Assembly (NCBI GenBank): GCA_002813105.2
Contig: CP017966.2
Coordinates: 62,001 to 126,000 of the forward strand
Length of the DNA stretch: 64,000 nucleotides
Origin: Methanosarcinales archaeon Met12
GTDB taxonomy: Archaea > Halobacteriota > UBA148 > JAJOKI01
Direction of reading: 5' to 3'
Shown here: piece by piece, positions 1 through 62,275 of the stretch
Layout of the letters: each line of letters begins with the position of its first letter
Numbering within the stretch: the first letter of the stretch is position 1
Translations under genes and position numbers: made by a program
Notes under the pieces: generated by a model
The model's input: the letters and a program-made list of their open reading frames with translations, nothing else
Databases searched by the model: none
Told to the model about the DNA's origin: nothing

Positions 1-387
1 TATAAAGCAAGCCAGAGTGAACTAAAAAAATGTAAATTAGGGTTCAGAGAGAGGTGGATCAGAGGCGTAGCTAAGAAAGTTTATGATGACAGGCTACAAT
101 TAAGTCAATTGAAAAATCTCGATTATCAGAGTGCCAAGAAGACGCTGATGGGAGTCGAGGGAGTAGGACATAAAGTCGCCGATTGTGTCCTCTTGTTTTC
201 ATTGGACAAGTTGGAGGCATTTCCAATTGATGTCCACATAAGAAGATTCATGCGACGCGAATATTTTCAAAACAAGGTGGTGTCCGATGAGAAAATCCGT
301 GAGTTGGCAAGAGGATATTTTGGAAAATACGCCGGGTATGCCCAGGAATACTTATTTTATTATGAGAGATCGGAGAGTAGAAAATGA
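1..387 (+). CDS. ogg: 8-oxoguanine DNA glycosylase (OGG1-type), 3' part
   Basis: Open from the first base of the window, so the N-terminus lies outside. The visible part holds the helix-hairpin-helix/GPD region: the HhH segment GVEGVGHKVADCVLLFSL carries the lysine expected to attack the glycosidic bond (GHKVADC), and the catalytic Asp follows in FPIDVHIRR. Upstream in-frame residues (KLGFRERWIRGVAKKV) also fit the OGG family. This is a base-excision repair enzyme that removes oxidised guanine and can nick by beta-elimination. It overlaps the next gene by four bases (ATGA), implying co-transcription. An internal TTG at 109 is not the start, because the frame and the homology extend upstream of it. 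Confidence 0.85.
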   Translation, partial: YKASQSELKKCKLGFRERWIRGVAKKVYDDRLQLSQLKNLDYQSAKKTLMGVEGVGHKVADCVLLFSLDKLEAFPIDVHIRRFMRREYFQNKVVSDEKIRELARGYFGKYAGYAQEYLFYYERSESRK

Positions 388-1025
388 AACATAAACGACC
401 ATTCGTCTTCATCAATGCAGCGATGAGCGCGGATGGAAAGATATCCACATATGAGCGCAGGCAAATAAGAATATCGAGCGATGCGGATATGAGGCGGGTT
501 GATGAACTTAGAGCAGGTGCTGACGCCATAATGGTCGGCATAGGCACCGTTCTGGCAGATAACCCTAGTTTAACTATGAAGTCAGGAGAGAAGAATCCAA
601 TTCGAATAGTTGTGGACAGCATGGCGAGGACGCCTGTAGATGCAGAGATTATCTCCAGAAAAGGCAGTCCAACAATTATCGCTGTGTCCAAGTCTGCACC
701 CCCCAAAAGAGTTGAGGCGCTGAGGGGAAAGGCAGAGATTATCACAGTTGGCGATAGGCAAGTTTCACTGCCAGAATTGCTCAGTGAATTGAAAAGTAGA
801 GGTATCAATCGGTTGATGGTTGAAGGAGGCGCAACGCTTAACTGGGGGTTGATTTCAGAAAGATTGGTCGATGAGATTTATGTTTATATCGGGAATATGA
901 TTATTGGTGGCAAGGATGCGCCAACGCTTGTAGATGGACTCGGCTTTACCAAACCAGTAAAATTGGATTTGTTAAGCATCGAAAAGCTGGATGATGGCGT
1001 TTTGGTGAAGTGGTGCGTGCTTTGA
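384..1025 (+). CDS. arfC: 2,5-diamino-6-ribosylamino-pyrimidinone 5'-phosphate reductase
   Basis: 213 aa, RibD C-terminal (dihydrofolate-reductase-like) fold. It reduces the ribosylamino-pyrimidine intermediate of archaeal riboflavin/deazaflavin biosynthesis with NAD(P)H. Recognisable blocks: N-terminal FVFINAAMSADGKIS, the substrate/nucleotide segment GADAIMVGIGTVLADNPSLT, and the C-terminal LMVEGGATLNWGLI. Length matches stand-alone archaeal/yeast Rib7-type enzymes, which lack the deaminase domain. It starts at an ATG overlapping the stop of the glycosylase gene. A second flavin gene, an archaeal FAD synthase, lies at 21164-21592. Confidence 0.9.
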   Translation: MKHKRPFVFINAAMSADGKISTYERRQIRISSDADMRRVDELRAGADAIMVGIGTVLADNPSLTMKSGEKNPIRIVVDSMARTPVDAEIISRKGSPTIIAVSKSAPPKRVEALRGKAEIITVGDRQVSLPELLSELKSRGINRLMVEGGATLNWGLISERLVDEIYVYIGNMIIGGKDAPTLVDGLGFTKPVKLDLLSIEKLDDGVLVKWCVL

Positions 1026-1123
1026 ACCTGAGCAAAAAGTGGTAGTAAATAGTTTGAATATATAAGGAGTTAGGCGACATTTTGCTTGGTCGTCGTTATG
1101 CTCTAAAAGGAAAGGTATTAAAG

Positions 1124-1351
1124 ATGAAGTGCTATCGGCTATCTGTGGTGACTGAAAAAGATGCAGACGGATACTTTGCTTTCTGTCCTGAGCTTCAGGG
1201 ATGTTATACTCAGGGTGATAGTTATGAGGAGGCTTTAGAAAACATTAAAGACGCAATTCGTCTTCTTCATATAGAGGATAGATTAGAAAATAAGGAGGAT
1301 ATTCCTCTCATTGAATCTATCAGCCTGACTTCTTTGGAAGTGGCGGTATGA
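1124..1351 (+). CDS. hicB: HicB-family antitoxin
   Basis: 75 aa partial-RNase-H-fold HicB: a beta strand YRLSVVTEKDADGYFAFCPELQGCYTQG, then SYEEALENIKDAIRLL, the standard HicB core. ATG 1124 is preferred to the upstream TTG at 1082 because the family begins at this point. HicB proteins neutralise the HicA mRNA interferase and often repress their own promoter. The stop overlaps an ATG (ATGA) that begins a HicA-like peptide truncated after 15 codons, so this antitoxin appears to lack a functional toxin. It may be a leftover, or may act on another HicA in the genome (intact ones lie at 20611 and 55800). Confidence 0.8.
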   Translation: MKCYRLSVVTEKDADGYFAFCPELQGCYTQGDSYEEALENIKDAIRLLHIEDRLENKEDIPLIESISLTSLEVAV

Positions 1352-1395
1352 GGGAGAAGCTTCCTCGAGTGCCTGCTGATGAGGTGGGTATATGA
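1348..1395 (+). pseudogene. hicA toxin stump
   Basis: ATG overlaps the hicB stop (ATGA) and encodes MREKLPRVPADEVGI before TGA. KLPRVPADEV is the normal beginning of HicA toxins (KLPR-x-x-x-x-EV followed by the ALEKAGF helix and the GSHH block), but the rest is missing. The sequence passes into the palindromic repeat region within about 50 bases. I read this as a toxin gene cut off by the recombination that brought in the downstream repeat. The short length makes it impossible to exclude coincidence, but position, overlap and residues all agree. Confidence 0.55.
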
Positions 1396-1445
1396 AAACG
1401 GCCAAGCAAAACGCTACGCCACTATCGTGGCTCGCCCTTCGGGTC

Positions 1446-1525
1446 GCCTAACAGCGGATAAAAGGAAAATCAAAGATTTCCCCAAATTGCCTTCGGCAAC
1501 TTCATATATCCACAATATGTTATAT
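1446..1525 (+). repeat. attC-like palindromic repeat, copy 1
   Basis: Outer boxes GCCTAAC (1446-1452) and GTTATAT (1519-1525) resemble integron R'' and R' simple sites. Inside them GCGGATA (1454-1460) pairs with TATCCAC (1507-1513) with one mismatch. The loop region carries a GGAAAATC/GATTTCC hairpin and TTGCC-TTC-GGCAA. It shares 15 bp (1451-1465) and 17 bp (1481-1497) identically with copy 2. Box spacing is asymmetric (1 nt left, 5 nt right), as in copies 2 and 4. The attC assignment is inference; membership in one repeat family is directly visible. Confidence 0.6.
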
Positions 1526-1596
1526 GATATTGGACTTGGTGGCTAAGGAAAGAAATCTTGGATAGAGGATTGTAAATAGTGTAATAAGGTGATCGC

Positions 1597-1776
1597 ATGA
1601 CGGAGGCAATGATGGAGAAGATAGATCATATCGAAAAACTGTTAATGGAAATAAATGCAAAAATAGATAATTTTCTTGGATTTGAAGAGTTAAGCGAGGA
1701 GGAATTAGAAGAAATAGAGAGACTCAGAGAAGAAGTTAAATCAGGGGAGTACGTGAGATTTGAGGAAATGTTTTAG
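1597..1776 (+). CDS. small antitoxin-like protein upstream of RelE
   Basis: 59 aa, highly acidic, starting MTEAMMEKIDHIEKLLMEIN and ending in a conserved-looking SGEYVRFEEMF tail; the SGE-Y-x-x-xEE motif is common in RelB/DUF-type antitoxins. Its helical N-terminus looks like a dimerisation or coiled-coil segment and the C-terminal tail is the usual toxin-binding part. It stops two bases before the RelE-type toxin start, the normal antitoxin-toxin order. A GAGGAT/AAGGTGATCG stretch precedes the ATG. Function is inferred from size, charge and position. Confidence 0.65.
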   Translation: MTEAMMEKIDHIEKLLMEINAKIDNFLGFEELSEEELEEIERLREEVKSGEYVRFEEMF

Positions 1777-1778
1777 GA

Positions 1779-2054
1779 TTGATTATCTATGAAATCATTT
1801 TTACCAAACAAGCAGCAGATTTTGTAGAGTCTTTAGATAAAGGTTACAAGAACAAAATAAGGGGCGTTTTCGAGAGACTGAAGGAAAATCCATTTTCGTA
1901 TCCGTACAGAAAAATCAGGGGCGAACAAGATCTATACAGAATTAGAATTGGCAGATATAGGATATTGTATAAGGTAGATCAACCAGAGAGCAGGATCATT
2001 ATATTAAAGGTCGATACAAGGAACAGGGTTTATAAAAGGTTAGAACGTGACTAG
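1779..2054 (+). CDS. relE: RelE/ParE-superfamily toxin
   Basis: 91 aa, starting at TTG 1779 directly after the antitoxin stop; the nearby ATG is out of frame. Core pattern of the RelE fold: IIFTKQAADFVESLD at the N-terminus, then helix FERLKENPF, then the strands LYRIRIGRYRILYKVD and IIILKVDTRNRVYKR. The Arg/Lys/Tyr-rich C-terminus is where RelE toxins bind and cut ribosome-bound mRNA. Length is full. With the preceding 59-aa gene it forms a compact type II TA cassette bounded by attC-like copies 1 and 2. Confidence 0.85.
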   Translation: MIIYEIIFTKQAADFVESLDKGYKNKIRGVFERLKENPFSYPYRKIRGEQDLYRIRIGRYRILYKVDQPESRIIILKVDTRNRVYKRLERD

Positions 2055-2094
2055 CGCTCTAAGCCCAACGCTGCGCCCCTTACGGGCTTCGGTC

Positions 2095-2165
2095 ATACAA
2101 CAGCGGATAAAAGGCTTCGCCCAAATTGCCTTCGGCGAACTTCGTATATCCGCAGAACGTTAAGT
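2095..2165 (+). repeat. attC-like palindromic repeat, copy 2
   Basis: GCGGATA (2103-2109) pairs perfectly with TATCCGC (2147-2153). Outside lie ATACAAC (2095-2101) and GTTAAGT (2159-2165); the latter fits the integron consensus GTTRRRY. It shares the 15-bp and 17-bp blocks with copy 1 (2100-2114, 2120-2136) and the same 1-nt/5-nt spacer asymmetry. An additional GCCCAAC (2063-2069) fitting RYYYAAC sits just upstream inside an AAGCCC/GGGCTT hairpin. It lies 40 bases after the relE stop, on the same strand, as an attC would. Confidence 0.6.
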
Positions 2166-2254
2166 GAAATCGTGGACTTCGGGCGAATTTAGCGGTCTTT
2201 CATCGGTAAATATAAATATGGTCGAGCTCATATTAAATAATAGTAAAATAATCG

Positions 2255-2278
2255 CTGTCGTTCCTTCGGGGATGACAG
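2255..2278. repeat. 10-bp hairpin with TTCG tetraloop
   Basis: CTGTCGTTCC, loop TTCG, GGGATGACAG: a ten-pair stem with two G-T pairs, about 25 bases upstream of the broken NYN gene. It could be a terminator for the upstream cassette or a small mobile palindrome. No run of T follows it, so a classical terminator is not clear. Confidence 0.5.
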
Positions 2279-2303
2279 TCAAAAATAAAATATTGTGATT
2301 TTG

Positions 2304-2785
2304 ATGGATCGCGTCGCAGTACTGATTGATGGTGGCTATTTTGCTAGGATTTTAGACACAGATTTTGGTCGTCCAAAAGAACGTATTATTATACTTGCAT
2401 GCCTTACCAAAGTAGTCCACCAACCGATGAGGAAAAACGAAGATTTTCCACGATGGACAAATTTATCTACACATTACGAAGACTCCCTCGGTTCGAGGTA
2501 AGATTAGGTAAATTAGGCTGGGCTGGGGGAGAATTAGTACAGAAACGAGTTGATATCTTACTTACGGTAGATCTCGTCAGAATGAGTTGGGGAAGATTAA
2601 TAGGTACCGCAATCCTTGTAACTGGAGATGGCGACTTCGTTCCTGCTGTTGAGGCAGCAAAAGATGCTGGTGTTCTGGTTCAATTATATTATTCTCGAAG
2701 TTCTATACATGATGAGCTCCTTTCCGCTGTAGATGAAAGTTTTGTGATTACTGAGGAGCTAATTGATTCTTGTAGAATGAAATGA
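2304..2785 (+). pseudogene. NYN-domain (PIN-like) nuclease, frameshifted with internal deletion
   Basis: The N-terminus (MDRVAVLIDGGYFARIL, with the metal-binding Asp of LIDGGYF) is read in one frame from ATG 2304. The rest is in another frame, where RTYYYTCMPYQSSPPT (from about 2378), QKRVDILLTVDLVR and VLVTGDGDFVPAVEAA carry the remaining acidic residues. In intact LabA/NYN proteins about 30 residues separate these blocks; here only a few remain, so a deletion that is not a multiple of three lies near 2340-2378. Family role: metal-dependent RNA cleavage, often in accessory loci. Reading it as one broken gene rather than two is supported by the order of conserved motifs. Confidence 0.75.
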
Positions 2786-2840
2786 TTTACCATTAAAAAC
2801 GCCCTTCGTCCACGACTCTACCAATCCTTTGGATTGCTCG

Positions 2841-2902
2841 ATGCTAACGCACTCGGACAACACGGTGTATGTGGTTCGCTTACGTCACGCAAAACGTTAA
2901 CA
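2841..2902 (+). repeat. possible degenerate attC-like repeat, copy 3
   Basis: Downstream of the NYN remnant is ATGCTAAC (2841-2848), GGACAACACGGTGTATG (2855-2871) and, on the right, CACGCAAAACGTTAACA (2886-2902). The AACACxGxxTAT run aligns with the left half of copy 4 (20465-20476), and AACGTTA is shared with copy 2. Pairing between the halves is weak, so this is only a candidate decayed member. It occupies most of the gap between the NYN remnant and the next gene. Confidence 0.3.
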
Positions 2903-2968
2903 AAGCCATCCAGCCAAACCTTTATAAACTATCGTAGCATCATAATGCTAACCATAGAGGTGTAAATT

Positions 2969-3169
2969 TTGTATAGAAGAGAGCCGAGTGCCCCCGTAAC
3001 AGAGGGGGAAACGTACGACGTAAAGATAGAAGACATAGCTAGAGAAGGAGACGGAATCGCCCGCATCGAGGGATTTGTCGTATTCGTCCCTAATACGAAA
3101 GTAGGCGATGAGGTCAAGATAAAAGTTAACAAGGTCATGCATAGATTCGCTATAGCTGAATTGGCATAA
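2969..3169 (+). CDS. TRAM-domain protein
   Basis: 66 aa consisting of a single TRAM (OB-fold) domain: [44 protein letters not shown]. Single-TRAM proteins of archaea bind RNA and act as cold-shock-type RNA chaperones. The TTG start at 2969 is chosen because the domain begins soon after and GAGGTG lies upstream; a TATA-like TTTATAAACT at 2930-2939 gives a sensible promoter spacing. It is the first ordinary gene after the accessory island. Confidence 0.85.
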
Positions 3170-3230: not shown

Positions 3231-4277
3231 CTAAAAGTAGCTGTCCACGTTCTCGATCGAATGTGCGACCAGCTTTGCACACATGTCGATGTCCTTCAAG
3301 TTGACCACTTCAACAGGTGAATGAATATATCGCACTGGTACGCTGACGGTGCCCGTTGGGATGCCAACCCTTGTTAATTGAATTGCTGTCGCATCGGTCG
3401 TTCCGCCATCAGAGACGTCCAGCTGGTATTGAATCTTGTTTCTCTCTGCGGTCTCTTTTAGCCATTTAAGGATTGTGTTCGGCGTGATGATGCCCCTTCC
3501 TGCCGCATCCATCACCGTAATAGAGGGACCCTTACCCATTTCGATCGCGGATTCCCGCTTCTTGATGTTCGGATGATCGCCGGCGATGGTAACTTCTGTT
3601 GCCAGTGCCACATCTGGATTTAATCCGAACGCAGAAGTCCTTGCGCCTTTTAGCCCGACCTCTTCTTGGACCGTACCGACGGCATATATGGTGGCATTCG
3701 ATTTTGTCCGCTTCAAAGCATCGAGCATGACTACCAGTCCCACCCTATCATCGAATGCCTTCCCAGTGACCTTGTCATTTGCAAGCGTTCTGAACTCTCT
3801 ATCGATGGTTATCGGCGTCCCTACCGTCGCGCCCAATTCCTCAGCATTTTTTATGCTGGTGGCGCCGATATCGATGAACATATCGTCTGCCTTGACCACC
3901 GTATCTTTCTCTTTTTCTTTCATTCTGTGCGGCGGTTTGGACCCAATCACTCCGGTTAGAGCCCCCTTTTCAGTATGTAAAATCACGCGCTGATTGAGCA
4001 ACGTCTGGTCAAACCAACCACCAACCTTTACGAAGCGAATAAATCCACCTTTATCCACATAGTTAGCCATCATGCCAATTTCATCCATATGTGCGGCGAG
4101 CATGACGGATGGCTTTTTGCCATTTTTTGTCGCGATGAGGTTTCCAAGTGAGTCAATTTTAATTTCGTCAACATATGATTCCAGTTCCATCTGGACTATC
4201 GCGCGAACGTCATTCTCATGTCCCGGAATTCCGTGTGCATTTGACAATTTTTCCAGCAAATTTCTTATTTTTTTCAT
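3231..4277 (-). CDS. M42-family metallo-aminopeptidase
   Basis: 348 aa, TET-type dinuclear metallopeptidase that trims peptides from the N-terminus in a large cytosolic complex. Metal and catalytic blocks are all present: AAHMDEIG (His, Asp), KAFDDRVG (bridging Asp), VQEEVGLKGA (catalytic Glu and ligand Glu), ATEVTIAGD and the final ligand His in VRYIHSPVE. Start at ATG 4277 (MKKIRNLLEKL); the frame extends 15 codons further but would overlap hxlB. It is the last gene of a minus-strand run with hxlB only four bases upstream. Confidence 0.9.
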   Translation of the reverse strand: MKKIRNLLEKLSNAHGIPGHENDVRAIVQMELESYVDEIKIDSLGNLIATKNGKKPSVMLAAHMDEIGMMANYVDKGGFIRFVKVGGWFDQTLLNQRVILHTEKGALTGVIGSKPPHRMKEKEKDTVVKADDMFIDIGATSIKNAEELGATVGTPITIDREFRTLANDKVTGKAFDDRVGLVVMLDALKRTKSNATIYAVGTVQEEVGLKGARTSAFGLNPDVALATEVTIAGDHPNIKKRESAIEMGKGPSITVMDAAGRGIITPNTILKWLKETAERNKIQYQLDVSDGGTTDATAIQLTRVGIPTGTVSVPVRYIHSPVEVVNLKDIDMCAKLVAHSIENVDSYF

Positions 4278-4281
4278 AAGT

Positions 4282-4890
4282 CTACTCCAAGCTCGCATGT
4301 CGGGATTGAAGATATTTCTCATCTCTTTTGGTGACGGTCATCAATTCAGATATCAGGCCATCCAAAAATACAAGGCTCGTCGTCTCGAAAATTGTTCCCA
4401 GCGGCACCAGTGGTTGATATTCTCCACGCACCTGGCGTTCGAAATAGTCGACGCTGTCCATTTTGCTTCGCCCTTTTACTTCAATTACTACGTCAGATTT
4501 CTTCGCCAATGGCGAGCTGATATTCGAAGTTATCGTCACCAGTTTGGCTCCACATTGTTTCCCAACAAGGGCGAGTTCGACGACCGATTTTGTCTCACCT
4601 GAGCCAGAAATTGTGATTAAAAGATCCCCCTTCTCCACCGCAGGGGTAACGCTCTCGCCCACCACATATACAGGCAAGTCCAAATGCATTAATCGCATGG
4701 CGAACGCTCTTCCGACCAGCCCTGACCTGCCAGCACCCATCACAAATATCTTCTTGGCGGCGAGAATATGACTTATCAGGGCATCTACCTGGTCATCATG
4801 AATCTCGCCTGCTATCTTGATAATATGCGCCCCTATCAAATTCATCGTTAACTTGGTATCCCGCTTTGTGGTATTTTTGTCATTGGACAC
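4282..4890 (-). CDS. hxlB: 6-phospho-3-hexuloisomerase
   Basis: 202 aa SIS-domain isomerase: KKIFVMGAGRSGLVGRAFAMRLMHL, then VGESVTPAVEKGDLLITISGSGETKSVV and the C-terminal GTIFETTSLVFLDGLI. It interconverts D-arabino-3-hexulose 6-phosphate and fructose 6-phosphate, the second step of the ribulose monophosphate pathway. In archaea the pathway runs in reverse to make ribulose 5-phosphate (or binds formaldehyde). The partner hexulose-phosphate synthase is not in the window. It overlaps the upstream gene by 11 bases. Confidence 0.9.
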   Translation of the reverse strand: MSNDKNTTKRDTKLTMNLIGAHIIKIAGEIHDDQVDALISHILAAKKIFVMGAGRSGLVGRAFAMRLMHLDLPVYVVGESVTPAVEKGDLLITISGSGETKSVVELALVGKQCGAKLVTITSNISSPLAKKSDVVIEVKGRSKMDSVDYFERQVRGEYQPLVPLGTIFETTSLVFLDGLISELMTVTKRDEKYLQSRHASLE

Positions 4891-5695
4891 TGGTGATAAT
4901 CTCCTTCATCTTCAATGCATCACTCTCTAATAAAGGTGATTCACATATCACGGTCGCATGATATTTTCGTTCGATTAATGCCTCTACTAAATGCTTAAAA
5001 TTTGGGTCATCGTTTATGGGAGTGTGCTTTATTTCATTCCCCTTCGCATATTTTACACCGGTAAAATGAATATGAAATTTATTCCCCTCAAATCTATCAA
5101 AGACCGCTTCATAGTCTTCTTTCTGGTTCAATGAACCGTTGCCCCTTGCATGAATGTGGGCAAAATCGAGCACTGGCACAGTGCCCTTTACCGTTGCCAC
5201 GAGCTTCGCTATTTCATCAACGGTGCCAAACTGCCGCTGCCTGCCAGCAGTTTCAAGCCCGATTTTTACATCATTATCGACCACACTTGACACCTCCTCG
5301 CAGGCTCTTCGAACAAGTTCGAAGGTATCGTTCGAGTAATAAGCAGGATGAACCACTACGATACCTGCACCTGCCTCTTTTGCACGCTTGGCTGATTTGA
5401 TGATATATTCCTTGCTTTTTTCGATCGTTGCAATTTCCGTTGAAGCGAGATTGATGTAATAGGGAGAATGGACTGATAATCTGATTTCCAATTTTTCAGC
5501 CAGACGACCGACCTTTTCGGCGGACTCGCTATTCATGAAGACCCCCCTGACAAATTGAATCTCCATTGCGTCCAATCCAATTTCAGAAAGATACCGAATT
5601 CCTTCTTCTATCCCCTTCCCCTTTCTATCCACAGGGATTCCGGCTATGCCTACTTGAATCAATCGATCACTCGCCTGGTTGGACGCTATACGCAT
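4880..5695 (-). CDS. endonuclease IV-like / xylose isomerase-like TIM barrel protein
   Basis: 271 aa AP endonuclease family 2 barrel. Metal-ligand positions typical of Nfo can be seen: VHSPYYINLAS, VVVHPAYYS, GLETAGR, PVLDFAHIHARGNG, HFTGVKYA and the late VICESPLL. It would cut abasic sites in DNA, although related barrels are sugar isomerases. Archaeal Nfo proteins are of this length. The start is uncertain: ATG 5695 overlaps the upstream gene by 29 bases, whereas a TTG at 5662 would abolish the overlap. Confidence 0.75.
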   Translation of the reverse strand: MRIASNQASDRLIQVGIAGIPVDRKGKGIEEGIRYLSEIGLDAMEIQFVRGVFMNSESAEKVGRLAEKLEIRLSVHSPYYINLASTEIATIEKSKEYIIKSAKRAKEAGAGIVVVHPAYYSNDTFELVRRACEEVSSVVDNDVKIGLETAGRQRQFGTVDEIAKLVATVKGTVPVLDFAHIHARGNGSLNQKEDYEAVFDRFEGNKFHIHFTGVKYAKGNEIKHTPINDDPNFKHLVEALIERKYHATVICESPLLESDALKMKEIITSVQ

Positions 5696-6209
5696 CTTTT
5701 TTGAAGTCTATCTTCTTGATGTGCCACCCAACCACATCGCGCAGCTCGTCAAAAAGCAGCATGATCTTTGCGACGCTTCCATCCCAGAACATAGTGTTCT
5801 TGACGTCTCCTTTTCGGAGCTGTGCGAAAATAGATAGCGCAAAATGTTCTAATGCCTCTCTTTTTGAGAATGGTATGTTAAATATCGCACGATATCCTTC
5901 CCTCGTCTTTGCATATGAAACCAGAGTGTATCCCCTCACCTGATAGTCCTGAATCCCCTCAAAGCTACAGATGACCTCTTTTTCACATTCCACTGAAGAA
6001 TCTATGCTGGAAACGCCAGTGATAATCCGTTTGATCAAATCGATGGTCGCCTTTTTTCCAAACCAAATTGTTATCTTCCCATGAGTACAGGAAATCGTAA
6101 CATCATCCCTGCCCATACCCATCAAAGATACAATGTGATCTGCTGTACTAATATCAAACTTCGCTATATCCGGATAGCCGTCATCAGCATCTATGGATAT
6201 GGATATCAT
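5667..6209 (-). CDS. conserved-looking hypothetical protein
   Basis: 180 aa, no family recognised. No signal peptide or transmembrane stretch. The N-terminal half is rich in beta-type residues (DDVTISCTHGKITIWFGKKATIDLI) and the C-terminal half is helical (SKREALEHFALSIFAQLRKG, VAKIMLLFDELRDVVG). It begins a minus-strand run with the endonuclease IV-like gene, hxlB and the M42 peptidase, with tight overlaps that argue it is translated. The upstream region is a 330-base gap holding a structured RNA candidate transcribed the other way. Confidence 0.6.
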   Translation of the reverse strand: MISISIDADDGYPDIAKFDISTADHIVSLMGMGRDDVTISCTHGKITIWFGKKATIDLIKRIITGVSSIDSSVECEKEVICSFEGIQDYQVRGYTLVSYAKTREGYRAIFNIPFSKREALEHFALSIFAQLRKGDVKNTMFWDGSVAKIMLLFDELRDVVGWHIKKIDFKKDAYSVQPGE

Positions 6210-6292
6210 ATAATCTCACAGCCAAATTATATGAGATGCATATATTTACCTTTTTATTATCAAATCATGTACCAGAATCTTTACCAAAATTT

Positions 6293-6305
6293 ATTTATAA
6301 CTATA
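6293..6305 (+). promoter_or_regulatory. TATA-box candidate for the structured RNA/tfx transcript
   Basis: TTTATAACTATA lies about 25 bases upstream of 6320, exactly where the closing stem of the structured RNA begins. This spacing is typical of archaeal promoters and suggests transcription starts at or next to the 5' side of that stem. Confidence 0.5.
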
Positions 6306-6320
6306 TAGAGTATTGATGTC

Positions 6321-6529
6321 TGGCAGGATGAAGTCTACGACGAAAGCTAAACTATTATCTACGGATGATAGTCGTTGTGTATAAGCCTGGGTTAAAAACC
6401 AGAGAATGACACAACTAAACACCTTAGCAGAAAGGTGTTGATGCGACACCCGTAGAAAAAAGGCCCAAAGGACGAAAAATCGGCAGATTCTATCTAGTCG
6501 ATAAGTACTTCGAGGGTCGAGTCCTGCCA
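6321..6529 (+). ncRNA. structured RNA candidate (free ncRNA or tfx leader)
   Basis: An 8-bp closing stem TGGCAGGA (6321-6328)/TCCTGCCA (6522-6529) encloses a multi-branched region. CTATTATC/GATGATAG has a TACG loop (6352-6371); ACGAC/GTCGT is at 6337/6371; GTTGTGT/ACACAAC (6374-6380/6409-6415) has an inner CTGG..CCAG hairpin; ACACCTT/AAGGTGT is at 6419-6438; CTACG/CGTAG is at 6335/6451. A TATA box sits 25 bases upstream, T-rich sequence follows, and the tfx ATG comes 10 bases later. I do not recognise the class: RNase P, SRP and tRNA consensus blocks are absent. It is either a stand-alone RNA or a leader controlling tfx. Confidence 0.55.
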
Positions 6530-6538
6530 CTTCATTTT

Positions 6539-6946
6539 ATGTCAGATAAATCGTTTTTAACCGCCCAACAAATTCGAGTTCTGAAGTTGCGTGAAAAAGG
6601 ACTAACCCAAAAAGAAGTGGCCCACCGATTGGGCACCACTCGCGCCAACATAAGCACCATCGAAAAAAGGGCCCATGCCAATATCGAACGTGCGAGAGAG
6701 ACGCTTAAAGAATGGAAAGAACTATTGGCACCGGTTCAAATCAACATCCCAGAGGGCACGGATGTGTTGGAAATACCAAAGAAGGTATTCCGTCAAGCGG
6801 ACGAGAATGGCATCAAGATACAAGCCGATACGCTGGAGTTAATCACGCAGATAGAAAAACAAAAGAAGGATAAAATAAAGAACCGAATGCTCATCGAAGG
6901 TCTTCAGATTTATATCAGCGTGACTGGAGAGATAATACTCGACTGA
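6539..6946 (+). CDS. tfx: Tfx-family DNA-binding regulator
   Basis: 135 aa. N-terminal sigma-like helix-turn-helix (LTAQQIRVLKLREKGLTQKEVAHRLGTTRANISTIEKRA), then the Tfx C-terminal domain with EIPKKVFRQADENGIKIQ and a final ITGEIILD-like strand. Tfx in Methanothermobacter binds the promoter of the molybdenum formylmethanofuran dehydrogenase operon. Here the gene is convergent with a tungstate ABC transporter, ending four bases from its last gene, so a molybdate/tungstate-responsive role is a reasonable inference. It is preceded by an unusual structured leader rather than a clear Shine-Dalgarno sequence. Confidence 0.88.
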   Translation: MSDKSFLTAQQIRVLKLREKGLTQKEVAHRLGTTRANISTIEKRAHANIERARETLKEWKELLAPVQINIPEGTDVLEIPKKVFRQADENGIKIQADTLELITQIEKQKKDKIKNRMLIEGLQIYISVTGEIILD

Positions 6947-6950
6947 TACA

Positions 6951-8021
6951 TCATCTGAGCCGTCCAAACACGTGCACACTCGGCGCCTTAAAAGATAAAA
7001 ATACTTCCGACCCAATGTCGAGATTCAGGTCCAAGAAGGACTGTCTCGTTATGAATACGACGAATGGCTCCCCCGCATTTACGACCAATCGCATAATTGA
7101 TCCACAGTCAAATATATCGATTATTCTGCCAGCTAAAACGTTCCTCGCGCTCGACATGATTTTCTTCTTCGATACGATGATGTCCTCTGGTCTGACAACT
7201 GCAAAGACCTCGCCAGTTCTCTTCGTACTGGAAATCAACTCAATGTTATCTGTAAATACTTTTGTAACGCCGCCCTCTTCTCTTGCCCTCCCAGCGAACA
7301 GATTCTCAACGCCAACGAAGTTTGCGACGAACTCGGATTCTGGCTTGCGGAATACCTCTTCCGGCGTATCGATTTGAACGAGTTTTCCCTCCATGAGTAC
7401 CCCCATCCTATCCGCAAGGCGTTGGCCCTGGGACATGTCATGAGTGGCCATTATTATGGTGACGTCGTGCTCATATCTGATGCGCGATATCATCCCCTCG
7501 ATTATATCTGCGCTTTTTGGGTCGAGATTCGCGGTTGGCTCATCCAGTAACAGCACATCGGGCTCGATTATAAGGTCTCGTGCTAATGCCACTCTTTGCA
7601 TCTCCCCTCCTGAAAGAGTCCGAGCATTTCTATTCTCAAAACCAGAAAGAGATACCATCTCTAATACATTTGCAACTTTTTCATCGATGCCATCCTCCCC
7701 CCTCACCTTCAAACCATACGCCACATTATCATACACACTTGCATTAAACGCTATTGGCTTTTGAAACACCATTGCCATTTTTCTGCGAATACTCAGTTTG
7801 ATTCCTTCAGGCTGATCTACGGTATCGATTCCATCAAAAAATATTTTTCCACTGGTGGGAGTATCAAGTAGATTTAATAAACGCAATATTGTGGTCTTGC
7901 CAGAGCCAGTGGGGCCTATCAGTGCAAGAGTCTCACCTTTTTTAACTTCAAAATTGATGTCTTTTAATATCTCTTTATTTCCAAAGCTCTTACATAAGCT
8001 CTTAACTTCTATCAGAGACAT
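6951..8021 (-). CDS. tupC: tungstate/molybdate ABC transporter ATP-binding protein
   Basis: 356 aa. ATPase domain with Walker A GPTGSGKTT, Q-loop VFQKPIAF, signature LSGGEMQR, Walker B VLLLDEPTANLD and H-loop MATHD, followed by a TOBE/Mop-type C-terminal domain of about 120 residues (VVRPEDIIVSKKK onward) expected to sense oxyanion. It powers uptake of tungstate through TupB and is the last gene of the tupABC operon; the tupB stop and the tupC start are adjacent. Specificity for tungstate over molybdate is inferred from the TupA sequence. Confidence 0.88.
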   Translation of the reverse strand: MSLIEVKSLCKSFGNKEILKDINFEVKKGETLALIGPTGSGKTTILRLLNLLDTPTSGKIFFDGIDTVDQPEGIKLSIRRKMAMVFQKPIAFNASVYDNVAYGLKVRGEDGIDEKVANVLEMVSLSGFENRNARTLSGGEMQRVALARDLIIEPDVLLLDEPTANLDPKSADIIEGMISRIRYEHDVTIIMATHDMSQGQRLADRMGVLMEGKLVQIDTPEEVFRKPESEFVANFVGVENLFAGRAREEGGVTKVFTDNIELISSTKRTGEVFAVVRPEDIIVSKKKIMSSARNVLAGRIIDIFDCGSIMRLVVNAGEPFVVFITRQSFLDLNLDIGSEVFLSFKAPSVHVFGRLR

Positions 8022-17603: not shown

Positions 17604-18837
17604 ATCTCCATCAGCAGAAGAGGGTCGCCTCAGAATCGAGTGGGCAAAAAAACATATGCCCGTCTTAGGGCGCATACGAAAACAGTTTGAAGCAGAGCTC
17701 CCGCTTGAGGGGCATACGATTGGAATGGCGCTTCATGTCGAAGCCAAAACCGCTGTGTTAGTAGAGACTCTGGCGGCAGGTGGCGCAGAGGTCGCAATCA
17801 CGGGTTGCAATCCATTAAGCACGCAGGATGATGTGGCACTTGCATTGCGTCAGAAGGATGTACCATGCTATGCAAAACACGACTGTAACACCAGAGAATA
17901 CTATCGGGCAATCGACGCTGTTCTGGATAATAAACCAGATATTACGATAGACGATGGCGCTGACCTGATATTCAGGCTCCATACTGACCGCAAGGAACTG
18001 CTCCCAGACATCATTGGGGCATGTGAGGAGACCACCACAGGCGTCCGTCGCTTAAAGGCTATGCAGGCTGATGATGCGCTTAAATTTCCAGTGATAGCTG
18101 TCAACGATGCTAAAACCAAGTTTCTTTTTGATAACCGATATGGCACCGGGCAATCGACATGGGACGGAATAATCAGGACGACGAACCTGCTGGTAGCTGG
18201 AAAGAATGTCGTGGTCGCAGGTTATGGGTGGTGCGGTAAAGGCGTTGCGATGAGAGCGGATGGCCATGGCGCAAACGTGATAATAACCGAGGTCGATCCG
18301 ATTCGAGCCTTGGAAGCAAAAATGGACGGCTATAGGGTAATGCCAATGATTCAAGCCGCGAAGATCGGTGACTTTTTCATCACTACCACCGGCAACAAAG
18401 ATGCCATCATAAAGGAGCATTTTAAGCTTATGAAGGATGGCACAATACTGGTAAACGCCGGTCATTTTAACGTGGAGATTGATATGGCTCAACTCAGCAA
18501 GATTGCAAAGAGCGTCAGAAGAGTTAGAGCCAATATTGAAGAGTATGATTTGGATGAGAAGAGACTTTATGTCCTGGGAGGGGGGCGGCTTGTTAATCTG
18601 GCAGCAGGTGATGGGCATCCTGTCGAGGTTATGGACATGAGCTTCGCAAACCAGGCTTTATGTGTCAGATATATCGTGGAGTATGGAAAAGACCTCCAAA
18701 ACAAGGTATACGGCGTCCCTGAAGACATCGATGAGCAGGTGGCGCACCTGAAATTGGAATCAATGGGGATTCAGATTGACCGAATGAGCGCCGAGCAAAT
18801 AGAATATATGTCTGGATGGAAACATGGAACTGAGTAA
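17593..18837 (+). CDS. ahcY: adenosylhomocysteinase / S-inosylhomocysteine hydrolase
   Basis: 414 aa, the shorter archaeal form. Substrate domain: IGMALHVEAKTAVL, ITGCNPLSTQDDVA, TIDDGADL, ACEETTTGVRRL. NAD domain: VVVAGYGWCGKGVAMRADG. Near the C-terminus: GGGRLVNLAAGDGHP. It cleaves SAH (or, after DadD, S-inosylhomocysteine) to homocysteine and a nucleoside, relieving inhibition of methyltransferases. ATG 17593 overlaps the endonuclease stop by 11 bases. Proximity of a SAH deaminase raises the possibility that the true substrate is the inosyl compound; sequence alone cannot decide. Confidence 0.88.
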   Translation: MKSKSPSAEEGRLRIEWAKKHMPVLGRIRKQFEAELPLEGHTIGMALHVEAKTAVLVETLAAGGAEVAITGCNPLSTQDDVALALRQKDVPCYAKHDCNTREYYRAIDAVLDNKPDITIDDGADLIFRLHTDRKELLPDIIGACEETTTGVRRLKAMQADDALKFPVIAVNDAKTKFLFDNRYGTGQSTWDGIIRTTNLLVAGKNVVVAGYGWCGKGVAMRADGHGANVIITEVDPIRALEAKMDGYRVMPMIQAAKIGDFFITTTGNKDAIIKEHFKLMKDGTILVNAGHFNVEIDMAQLSKIAKSVRRVRANIEEYDLDEKRLYVLGGGRLVNLAAGDGHPVEVMDMSFANQALCVRYIVEYGKDLQNKVYGVPEDIDEQVAHLKLESMGIQIDRMSAEQIEYMSGWKHGTE

Positions 18838-18916
18838 TGTGACCAAGATGGAATGATATGCGAACTTGAGTTCAGATATAAAGAGTTATCGGAAATTTTG
18901 CTTAAAGAGGTAAAAT

Positions 18917-19648
18917 ATGGATAAAACAGAACTTGGCTCAAAAATTGCAAAAGGCGGGTTTGCAAACGAAAAGGCAATTTGTAGAAAGTTTAATTCTTGG
19001 AGAAAAGATAAAGAGGCACAGGAATGGCTCAAAATAATGAATTACGATATTAAAAAACTTGATTCTGTAAAAGCAATTCAAGTTCCTACCAGAATAAAGA
19101 AGAATGATTTAAGTAAGTTTGAAGTTAATGAAAAAGAGTACGAGCAGTTTGTGAGATTTAAAAAGGCAGACGCTCAGATAAGAATTATTATAAAGATTGG
19201 GAATATACTTAAAATTGAAAATATGTCACTCAAGAAAGCAAATTCTGATGCTGATTATAATCAAATTGACAAAAGAACTGTTGCAGACTATCAAGAAATG
19301 TGGAAATTTGATGATGAGATTACATTTTGGCTTAAACTTTTTACAGGAGAAATAGCCCATAAAAAATACTCAGGGAAAATAAGTATTAAAAAATTTAGAG
19401 ATAAACGACGCCTGTTCTTGAACGAAATGCCAGAAAGAATTCAGGATAAAATTATTAAATTCTTTAAGAGAAATCAAATTATGATAATAAGCGATATAAT
19501 CAAGGGAAGAGGTGGGTTATCTGCTGATTGGATGTTAGTTACAAAACTTATTGGAAAAATCACAATGCAAAGAAAAGGTGGAACTCCAGACCCAACAAAA
19601 ATACAATTCAAGACAAAACCATGTCAGTTATTTAATCTTGGAGAATAA
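18917..19648 (+). CDS. probable type II restriction endonuclease
   Basis: 243 aa, lysine-rich and AT-rich. The N-terminus AKGGFANEKAICRKFNSWRKDKEAQEWL, the block KKADAQIRIIIKIGNILKIENMSLKKANSDADYNQIDKR (in order), and VADYQEMWKFDDEITFWLKLFTGE match a group of type II endonucleases I have seen paired with DPPF-type methyltransferases. A PD-(D/E)XK core is not obvious; Asp in KADAQ and Lys in SLKK are candidates. It ends two bases before a methyltransferase gene, which is the main evidence for its role. The recognition site is unknown. Confidence 0.65.
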   Translation: MDKTELGSKIAKGGFANEKAICRKFNSWRKDKEAQEWLKIMNYDIKKLDSVKAIQVPTRIKKNDLSKFEVNEKEYEQFVRFKKADAQIRIIIKIGNILKIENMSLKKANSDADYNQIDKRTVADYQEMWKFDDEITFWLKLFTGEIAHKKYSGKISIKKFRDKRRLFLNEMPERIQDKIIKFFKRNQIMIISDIIKGRGGLSADWMLVTKLIGKITMQRKGGTPDPTKIQFKTKPCQLFNLGE

Positions 19649-19650
19649 CA

Positions 19651-20445
19651 ATGGAAGTAAACAAAGTATATTTGGGCGATTGTATAGAAATTATGAGAAC
19701 ATTACCAGATAAGTCTATAGATTTAGTATTTGCAGATCCGCCTTTCAATATAGGGATAAAATACGATGTTCATAATGACAACATGTCTTATGAAGAGTAC
19801 TATAACTGGTCAGAAAAATGGATAAAAGAAACTTATAGATTACTTAAAAACAATGGGACAATATACATTGCAATTGGTGATGAATTCGCAGCAGAGATAA
19901 ATGTAATTTTAAAAAGGACAGGCTTCTATTTTAGAAATTGGATTATCTGGTACTACACTTTTGGGCAAAATCAGAGAAAAAAATTTAATCGTGCGCATAC
20001 TCATATTCTATATTTCACTAAAGACAAAGAACGATTTACATTTAATGATAAAAATATAAGAATTCCTTCTGCGAGGCAACTTATTTATAAAGATAGACGG
20101 GCAAATCCAATTGGAAAAATCCCTGATGATGTTTGGCAATTTTCAAGGGTTTGTGGCACTTTTAAAGAACGGATAGGAAAGCATCCCTGTCAGATGCCTG
20201 AAGATTTGTTAGAGCTAATAATAAAAACAAGTTCTAAAGAAGGCGATTTAGTTTTAGACCCTTTCGGTGGTACGGGAACAACTGCTGCAGTAGCCAAAAG
20301 ACTAAAACGAAATTTTATTACAATGGAAATATCAAAGGAATATTATAATGTTATATTAAAAAGATTAAGTGGTAAATTTGCAGAGATAAAAAGGAATAAA
20401 CAAGTTGAGCCAGAAAAACAAAAAACATTATTTGAAATTGTATGA
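19651..20445 (+). CDS. site-specific DNA methyltransferase (DPPF type)
   Basis: 264 aa beta-class methyltransferase: catalytic ADPPFNIGIKYD at residues 30-41 and AdoMet motif VLDPFGGTGTTAAVAKRL near 207, with a target-recognition region between. It modifies adenine N6 or cytosine N4; DPPF does not settle which. It forms an R-M pair with the gene just upstream. An attC-like repeat begins 16 bases after the stop, followed by HicAB, so this locus may belong to the same kind of cassette region as 1-3 kb. Confidence 0.85.
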   Translation: MEVNKVYLGDCIEIMRTLPDKSIDLVFADPPFNIGIKYDVHNDNMSYEEYYNWSEKWIKETYRLLKNNGTIYIAIGDEFAAEINVILKRTGFYFRNWIIWYYTFGQNQRKKFNRAHTHILYFTKDKERFTFNDKNIRIPSARQLIYKDRRANPIGKIPDDVWQFSRVCGTFKERIGKHPCQMPEDLLELIIKTSSKEGDLVLDPFGGTGTTAAVAKRLKRNFITMEISKEYYNVILKRLSGKFAEIKRNKQVEPEKQKTLFEIV

Positions 20446-20460
20446 TTGTCGCAAAACTTC

Positions 20461-20552
20461 CGATAACACAGCATATACGCTACAGGCTAACGCCCTTGCC
20501 CTTCGGGACATTTTGCTATCGCAAAACGTCGTATATGCTCGGAACGTTATAT
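20461..20552 (+). repeat. attC-like palindromic repeat, copy 4
   Basis: AGCATATACG (20470-20479) pairs perfectly with CGTATATGCT (20530-20539). Outside lie CGATAAC (20461-20467) and GTTATAT (20546-20552), with 2-nt and 6-nt spacers. That repeats the +4 asymmetry of copies 1 and 2, and the right box is identical to that of copy 1. Internal hairpins TTTTGC-TATC-GCAAAA (20511-20526) and CCCTTCGGG are present. It sits directly after a methyltransferase gene and before hicAB. Confidence 0.6.
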
Positions 20553-20610
20553 TCCATATGGCGAAAGGTTTTAAAAGTAATTATACAAGGAATATCTATG
20601 AGTAATCTCA

Positions 20611-20856
20611 ATGGACAAGAAAGGAATATACAAAGAGCTCAAAGAAAATCCAAAAAATGTCAGATTTGAGGAGCTTTGCAGGGCAGCAGAATTATTTGGC
20701 TTTAATTTTAAAGGTGGTAAAGGCAGCCACAGGATACTTGTAAGGAATGGAATAAGGGAGATGTTAAACCTTCAGAATGTTAAAGGGAGGGCAAAACCTT
20801 ATCAAGTCAGGCAATTCATAAAGATTATTGAGAAATATAACTTAGTAGAGGAATAG
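20611..20856 (+). CDS. hicA: HicA-family toxin
   Basis: 81 aa double-stranded-RNA-binding-fold toxin. Key block GFNFKGGKGSHRILVRNG includes the catalytic His (GSH), followed by MLNLQNVKGRAKPYQVRQFIKIIEKY, the C-terminal helix of HicA. It has a longer N-terminal helix (YKELKENPKNVRFEELCRAAE) than the minimal family. It would cleave mRNA unless bound by HicB, whose gene starts immediately after the stop. The order toxin-antitoxin is the usual hicAB order. Confidence 0.85.
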   Translation: MDKKGIYKELKENPKNVRFEELCRAAELFGFNFKGGKGSHRILVRNGIREMLNLQNVKGRAKPYQVRQFIKIIEKYNLVEE

Positions 20857-21111
20857 ATGGGGAGTCATAAATACACCATAGAGATATTTTATAGCGAGGA
20901 AGATGGAGGCCATATTGCAATAGCTCCAGAACTTCCCGGCTGTTCAGCTTTTGGAGAGACTGAAGAAGAAGCGTTAAAAGAAATTAGAGTAGCTATTGAT
21001 CTATGGTTGGAGACTGCTAAAAAAGAGAATAGAGAAATTCCAAAATCCATGGGAAAGGAATTTTTAAAGAGTATCGTTGATAAAGTATCTCAAGGGTTGC
21101 CAAGCAATTAA
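20857..21111 (+). CDS. hicB: HicB-family antitoxin
   Basis: 84 aa: TIEIFYSEEDGGHIAIAPELPGCSAFGETEEEALKEIRVAIDLWLETA covers the HicB core, with a short C-terminal helix (GKEFLKSIVDKVSQGL). It lacks an obvious separate DNA-binding domain. The start codon abuts the hicA stop, indicating translational coupling. It is the final gene of the plus-strand accessory run; the next genes are convergent. Confidence 0.88.
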   Translation: MGSHKYTIEIFYSEEDGGHIAIAPELPGCSAFGETEEEALKEIRVAIDLWLETAKKENREIPKSMGKEFLKSIVDKVSQGLPSN

Positions 21112-61861: not shown

Positions 61862-62275
61862 ATGGCAAAGGGCAAAACAAACAAATTACCGAGACGAAAG
61901 AAAGAATTCAAATATCGTGGATATACAATCGACGAGTTAAAAGAGATGGACCTGGAAGATGTTGCCAACCTGTTGCCAGCACGAGCGCGCAGAACCATCA
62001 AGCGAGGAATTTCTGAGGCGCATAAAAAATTATTAGAATCCATCAAAAAAGGAAAATCGCCAATCAGAACGCATCTGCGAGATACAATCATATTACCGAA
62101 GATGGTGGGCATGCAATTCGAATTACATGACGGAAAACAGTTTAACCGCGTGCAGATTCAACCAGAGATGATTGGACACTATCTCGGCGAGTTTGCGCTT
62201 ACTCGAAAACGGGTTATACACGGGAGTGCAGGTGTTGGTGCAACTCGATCAAGCAGATATGTGCCATTGAAGTGA
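61862..62275 (+). CDS. rps19: ribosomal protein S19
   Basis: 137 aa, archaeal form with an N-terminal extension of about 40 residues: [37 protein letters not shown] (in order), then [51 protein letters not shown] (in order). GAGGTGGAAAG precedes the ATG. Confidence 0.95.

Follow-up and report, generated by a model that had tools for sequence, protein, structure and literature searches.

Gene cassettes in a Methanosarcinales genome point to an integron type distinct from, yet related to, IntI integrons

Introduction

In integrons the right half of each recombination core belongs to the next cassette, so that a site's left box is expected to pair with the beginning of the cassette to which the site belongs. 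Cassette capture by IntI integrases is held to require the I2 insertion, and forms intermediate between Xer and IntI are said to be missing (PMC7790495). In the passages of Smyshlyaev et al. 2021 considered here, cassette arrays are not assigned to insertion-less members of the 'Integron-like' subgroup (PMC8138268), and the archaeal survey of Ghaly et al. 2022 demanded an IntI domain for integrases (PMC9668308). No description of cassette integrases lacking I2 was found in the open-access literature searched, which took in no preprints and few subscription papers, so the novelty of the system presented below is provisional.

We analysed a window of 64,000 nucleotides, bases 62001-126000 of the single-contig genome of Methanosarcinales archaeon Met12 (1,067,436 bp). 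Genes in this window are very probably remnant cassettes of an integron of a new type, distinct from yet related to IntI integrons. With the latter (class 1, chromosomal and archaeal; Ghaly et al. 2022, PMC9668308) the system shares the succession of integrase, attI and array, short cassettes on one strand, AAC/GTT cores, the pairing of left box and own cassette start, better folding of the bottom strand, and toxin-antitoxin and defence-type cassettes. It differs from them in an integrase without the IntI-specific insertion and with a HARP-like N-terminal domain, in the co-directional arrangement of integrase and array, and in a right site arm that is longer by 3-4 nt. Archaeal XerA (NF040815) is alike in the family score over the cut-off and in a catalytic domain without the insertion, whereas the recombinase described here has an extra N-terminal domain and a link to attI and cassette arrays. 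It also departs from the 'Integron-like' subgroup of simple tyrosine recombinases, for which the insertion is called essential for integron function in the same passages of Smyshlyaev et al. 2021 (PMC8138268).

Results

Cassettes between the RibD and TRAM genes

The locus between the two chromosomal flanks holds the genes named in the preliminary description, a hicB gene with a hicA stump, a RelBE-type pair and a broken NYN gene; they all lie on the plus strand and were recovered as HicB with the start of HicA, a pair of antitoxin and ParE-family toxin, and an NYN gene with a frameshift (Table 1). Copies 1 and 2 of the palindromic element, here sites 1 and 2, share two identical blocks, AACAGCGGATAAAAGG of 16 bp, previously given as 15 bp, and CCCAAATTGCCTTCGGC of 17 bp (BLAST E ~2e-10). 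The AAC/GTT boxes, the GCGGATA/TATCCRC stem and the spacers of 1 nt versus 5 nt are all present as noted before. That a palindromic element follows each gene holds for sites 1 and 2, whereas site 3 is degenerate; its full-length counterpart at the same place in the related genome G007 scores 59.9 bits. An Rfam search of the RibD-TRAM locus matched no family. Contamination was rejected in view of the single-contig genome and the archaeal flanking genes.

Cassette A begins with GTTAGGCG, the exact complement of the left box of site 1, CGCCTAAC. For cassette B, the start GTTATATG agrees at 7 of 8 positions with the reverse complement of the left box of site 2, GTTGTATG, and cassette C is not assessable in this respect, as its terminal site is degenerate. 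The possible vestige in front of cassette A, ATATAAGGAGTTA, was compared with attI, ATATAAGTAGTTA, at an E value of 0.13 that indicates resemblance only. At the equivalent place in genome G008 lies a vestige of the recombinase 3' end (NLSRIKSPLDS), with 87.5% identity over 24 nt to an older remnant in the window genome.

Table 1. Positions of the features in the window (position 1 is base 62001 of the contig)
Feature	Position	Strand	Remarks
RibD C-terminal-domain gene	384..1025	+	left chromosomal flank; PF01872 193 bits; syntenic in relatives
Possible vestige of recombinase 3' end and attI (weak)	1026..1068	+	resembles a remnant elsewhere in the genome
Cassette A	1069..1518	+	HicB-like antitoxin (1082-1351, PF15919) and HicA start; site 1 at end
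attC-like site 1 (copy 1)	1445..1530	+	covariance models R1 74.7 bits, R2 73.7 bits
Cassette B	1519..2158	+	antitoxin-like ORF (1597-1776) and ParE-family toxin (1779-2054, PF05016); site 2 at end
attC-like site 2 (copy 2)	2094..2170	+	R1 72.0 bits
Cassette C	2159..2895	+	frameshifted NYN-domain gene (2295-2785), PF01936 43 bits; two overlapping frames
Degenerate attC-like site 3 (copy 3)	2854..2907	+	R1 18.1 bits, E 0.32; internal deletion relative to G007
TRAM-domain gene	2969..3169	+	right chromosomal flank; PF01938 65.6 bits; syntenic in relatives
attI-like element, second array	18800..18896	+	core GTTATCGG; R3 37.5 bits, E 4e-4
HinP1I-type restriction endonuclease, cassette gene	18917..19648	+	PF11463 116.9 bits
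DNA methyltransferase, same cassette as HinP1I-type enzyme	19651..20445	+	PF01555 212 bits
attC-like site 4	20460..20557	+	left box CCGATAAC; R1 57.4 bits

A family of attC-like sites

The covariance model R1 was built from ten sites of the window genome and two related genomes, sites 1 and 2 included; it gives these two 72-75 bits, and equal scores to sites in other genomes outside the model. A scan for structure only (AAC-stem-GTT) returned 109 matches against 84-109 in shuffles, no excess over chance, so that significance rests on sequence together with structure and not on the palindrome alone. The search of the genome and its relatives envisaged in the preliminary description yielded 18 dispersed sites in the window genome (E < 0.001, 1.07 Mb) and sites in 59 of the 197 sampled genomes of its phylum (~30%). 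In total, 109 sites were collected.

The spacer asymmetry first noticed in copies 1 and 2 proved to be a genuine trait of the site class, with spacer pairs mostly of 1/5, 2/6, 3/7 and 4/8. Of 82 sites, 47 have a right arm that is 4 nt longer than the left and 17 have one that is 3 nt longer (together 64/82), compared with an asymmetry of 0 or -1 in class 1 attC, a weak comparison based on five sites read by eye and one scored by script. The bottom strand folds more stably in 98 of 106 sites, by 2.13 kcal/mol on average; an advantage of the same size has been published for mobile-integron attC (PMC5371416). Hairpins are present in the loop of the site stems. The canonical attC traits of AAC and GTT core boxes and a more stable folded bottom strand are present in the sites, but the left-arm extrahelical bases and the near-symmetric central spacer are not. 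Compared with the GTTRRRY/RYYYAAC consensus, GTTAGGC and GTTAAGT fit, but the common GTTATAY does not. Neither an Escherichia coli class 1 array nor the surroundings of four insertion-bearing IntIs gave a match to the site model.

Exchange at the core boxes and at attI

Over the five variable bases, the left box agreed perfectly with the start of its own cassette in 26 of 49 consecutive pairs and with its counterpart in place in 1 of 49. Mean agreement was 4.16 with the own start and 2.82 in place, compared with a mean of 3.04 and a maximum of 3.51 in 20000 shuffles (sign test 1.8e-8). Because left boxes pair with the starts of the cassettes that carry them, cassettes have evidently swapped neighbours by exchange at the AAC/GTT core, to which the exchange is localised without the exact base within it being fixable from sequence. 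The longest ORF lies on the strand of the site in 58 of 64 units, with a median unit of 974 nt.

An attI-like dyad with a GTT core, ending CG-ATAT-AACGA-GTT, stands ~18 to 150 nt past the stop of the recombinase. In 10 of the 13 defining loci the attI core is the exact complement of the left box of the first cassette (5000 shuffles, mean 1.2, maximum 7). A model of attI found further array heads, and the seven whose first site is readable, none of them used in building the model, all match at 8/8. As the attI core matches the first cassette, attI can be read from the sequences to have participated in the exchange. Box pairing, attI heads and one-strand units together bear out the integron-type cassettes with attC-like sites proposed in the preliminary description.

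Since the attI model found a head in the window at 18800, with a core that complements the left box of site 4 exactly (8/8), we read the segment 18800-20557 as a second array of attI, restriction-modification cassette and site 4. An intact HicA/HicB pair is located directly 3' of this site (window 20611-21111).

A recombinase without the IntI-specific insertion

Searching the window genome with the integron-integrase family identified pieces at 1,063,851-1,064,641 that make up one frameshifted gene. This broken platform begins with the frameshifted recombinase and an attI-like element; an HNH-like gene and a site come next, then genes for rubrerythrin and superoxide dismutase, a second site and a membrane-protein gene. 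The platform lies near 1.0637-1.0674 Mb, and the contig resumes at position 1 with another site. The cassettes had been described as lacking an integrase, which is correct locally, but the same genome has this frameshifted recombinase with attI and array, and relatives have intact platforms. In genome G003 the recombinase and attI are followed by three cassettes, each ended by a site; one encodes a 322-aa protein that belongs to no known family, one combines an acetyl-CoA synthetase-like gene and a small ORF, and one has a methyltransferase-like gene. As the recombinase of the window genome is frameshifted, the arrays there are probably immobile at present unless helped in trans.

Immediately upstream of the newer broken recombinase lies the 3' remnant of an older one, accompanied by a separate attI-like element (L010:8440-8660), which may, as a side reading, reflect successive integrons at one place. 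Genomes with sites commonly carry isolated short pieces of only the C-terminus of the recombinase (G001, G002, G004, G008, G010, G015, G024).

The recombinase scores 247-253 bits with NF040815 (recomb_XerA_Arch), over the cut-off of 220, and 230-237 bits with the NCBIfam integron integrase TIGR02249, below the cut-off of 265, the G003 enzyme reaching 247 and 230 bits respectively. The preliminary description proposed to look for a tyrosine recombinase with the IntI patch; the one found lacks it. The I2 insertion around patch III is replaced by a clean gap in comparison with the insertion-bearing IntI of Syntrophus, the patch III region measuring ~28 aa versus 50 or more in IntI-type proteins. 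Among solved structures, IntI4 and archaeal Xer match the recombinase best. The XerA-like chromosomal proteins of the phylum share just ~30-38% identity with it and are present in genomes without sites.

The N-terminal part appears HARP-like. When the sequence of the N-terminal 75 residues was compared with those of solved structures, nothing meaningful emerged, so that this relation rests on Pfam hits under the cut-off and a motif. The predicted structure is sound locally and not overall (pLDDT 81, pTM 0.52), and a fold search with it matched the catalytic part (IntI4, XerA). In a quick tree most of the recombinase family falls together, and IntI1 with four insertion-bearing HARP-like IntIs forms a nearby separate clade with full support, the branching order around this clade being weak. 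Insertion-bearing IntI-type integrases with a HARP-like N-terminal motif occur at L106, L111, L114 and L116 (Syntrophus, Armatimonadota, Nitrospinae and Methylomirabilota) and are possible links between the two integrase types.

Distribution and turnover

By a manual count that took in fragments and set a minimum of 50% identity, members of the recombinase family are present in 20 of the 197 genomes, and all 20 are among the 59 that bear sites; the hypergeometric probability of 2.4e-12 overstates independence, as the genomes are related. Recombinase and sites hence evidently co-occur. A family recombinase above the threshold is absent from 39 of the 59 site-bearing genomes, many of which are incomplete, and short remnants fall below the threshold.

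A scan of named genomes, which used motifs of the HARP region and is therefore biased toward that domain, identified 36 recombinase loci in archaea and bacteria. The site model, made beforehand without these loci, matches at many of the recombinases, including those of Caldisericum, WOR-3, Dehalococcoidia, Geoglobus, Archaeoglobi, Methanolliviera and Nitrospirae, and the layout of integrase, attI and array can be traced in sequence through several lineages. A scan of IMG/VR with the recombinase returned only recombinases of at most 49% identity, with the N-terminal domain mostly unmatched. Canonical IntI over the cut-off was found in 0 of 60 relatives and in 1 of 12 bearer genomes. This genome, L115 (Nitrospirae CG02), has two canonical IntI matches over the cut-off and lower-scoring sites of the same class as those in the window.

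The interval between RibD and TRAM has no site and a length of ~160 bp in G005. In G007, of the same genus, it is ~1.66 kb long and holds one cassette and a site, and in G008 it is 267 bp long, with a partial site besides the 3' vestige of the recombinase. Its length is ~2.8 kb in G004, where it has a site, 4.2 kb in G002 and 1.9 kb in the window genome. Its contents thus differ among related genomes. The preliminary description had counted copies throughout the genome, in the case of no cassette turnover between strains, against cassettes; the copies are indeed dispersed, but they close one-strand cassettes, attI elements head the arrays and the boxes pair by the cassette rule.

Discussion

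The functional traits of an integron that can be read in sequence are present: one-site cassettes mostly on one strand, attI beside the integrase gene, and a right half-core that belongs to the next cassette. In the most probable mechanism, a tyrosine recombinase of the Xer/IntI family without I2 and with a HARP-like N-terminal domain, encoded upstream of attI in the same direction, would be the enzyme that moves the cassettes. Cassettes in circular form, consisting of one gene or a small operon and a single attC-like site, would insert at attI and could excise and reinsert. The folded bottom strand would be the substrate of recombination, and the one-sided bulge of 3-4 nt and the HARP-like domain may stand in for the extrahelical bases and I2. 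The absence of I2 counts against this explanation, since the insertion is held necessary for cassette capture (PMC7790495).

As to origin, the system could be a lineage sister to IntI integrons in which I2 was never present and which recombines folded single-stranded sites by means of the HARP-like domain and the asymmetric bulge. The recombinase would then be of an intermediate type between Xer and IntI, and the IntIs that combine I2 with a HARP-like domain (Syntrophus, Methylomirabilota and others) would descend from this lineage or be cousins of it. We put this forward tentatively, at slightly less than even chances.

Alternatively, the recombinase could act like Xer on double-stranded attI and attC-like sites, with no folded single strands involved. 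The missing I2, which the literature links to the use of single-stranded attC, and a score that exceeds the cut-off for archaeal Xer proteins (NF040815) would suit such a double-strand cassette system, which we nevertheless consider unlikely, as the bias toward bottom-strand folding, the loop hairpins and the constant one-sided bulge resemble a folded-strand substrate and the cassettes have a single orientation.

It is considerably less probable that the sites are ordinary attC of canonical integrons, served in trans by IntI from other hosts, with the Xer-like recombinase a bystander. Archaeal IntI integrons exist, class 1 IntI1 accepted archaeal attCs in a published assay (PMC9668308), and one bearer genome (L115) has canonical IntI. 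However, IntI over the cut-off is missing from the 60 relatives and from 11 of the 12 bearer genomes, and the recombinase directly precedes attI in many lineages, with an attI core that matches the first cassette. The blank result of the site model on the E. coli class 1 array and beside the four insertion-bearing IntIs, and an arm asymmetry unlike that of class 1 attC (five class 1 sites by eye), likewise speak against IntI acting in trans. That the sites are REP/MITE-like repeats or terminators uninvolved in recombination was rejected as hardly credible, although they are palindromic, located after genes and dispersed in 18 copies over the 1.07-Mb genome, because the outer boxes follow the cassette rule and pair across the cassette with its start, not within the copy, attI heads arrays and matches their first cassettes, the sites end one-strand cassettes and are exactly associated with the recombinase, and no Rfam family was matched.

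If the window genes are cassettes of an integron of a new type, the claim that I2 is necessary becomes directly testable in an I2-less lineage that has an attI and an attC class of its own and in which cassette shuffling is visible, and the system bears on how integrons arose. Surveys that demand an IntI domain would miss the integrase of these systems, despite the sites in about 30% of the sampled genomes of the phylum and several bacterial recombinase loci. The arrays would also offer uncultured archaea and bacteria a route for the spread of toxin-antitoxin, restriction-modification and metabolic genes.

Defence-like cassette ORFs, TIR-like and DUF262-like by eye, were observed at L185:3556-4844, on the minus strand of L191 and at L183:5967-7718. 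A Chryseobacterium plasmid (L214, NZ_CP041688) carries, at ~3959-7300, a related recombinase and an attI-like stretch ending AAACAAGTTGGG; site-like elements lie at ~6359-6496 and 7070-7200, and their boxes seem to obey the cassette rule. This plasmid suggests that the cassette system is also present on plasmids of Bacteroidota.
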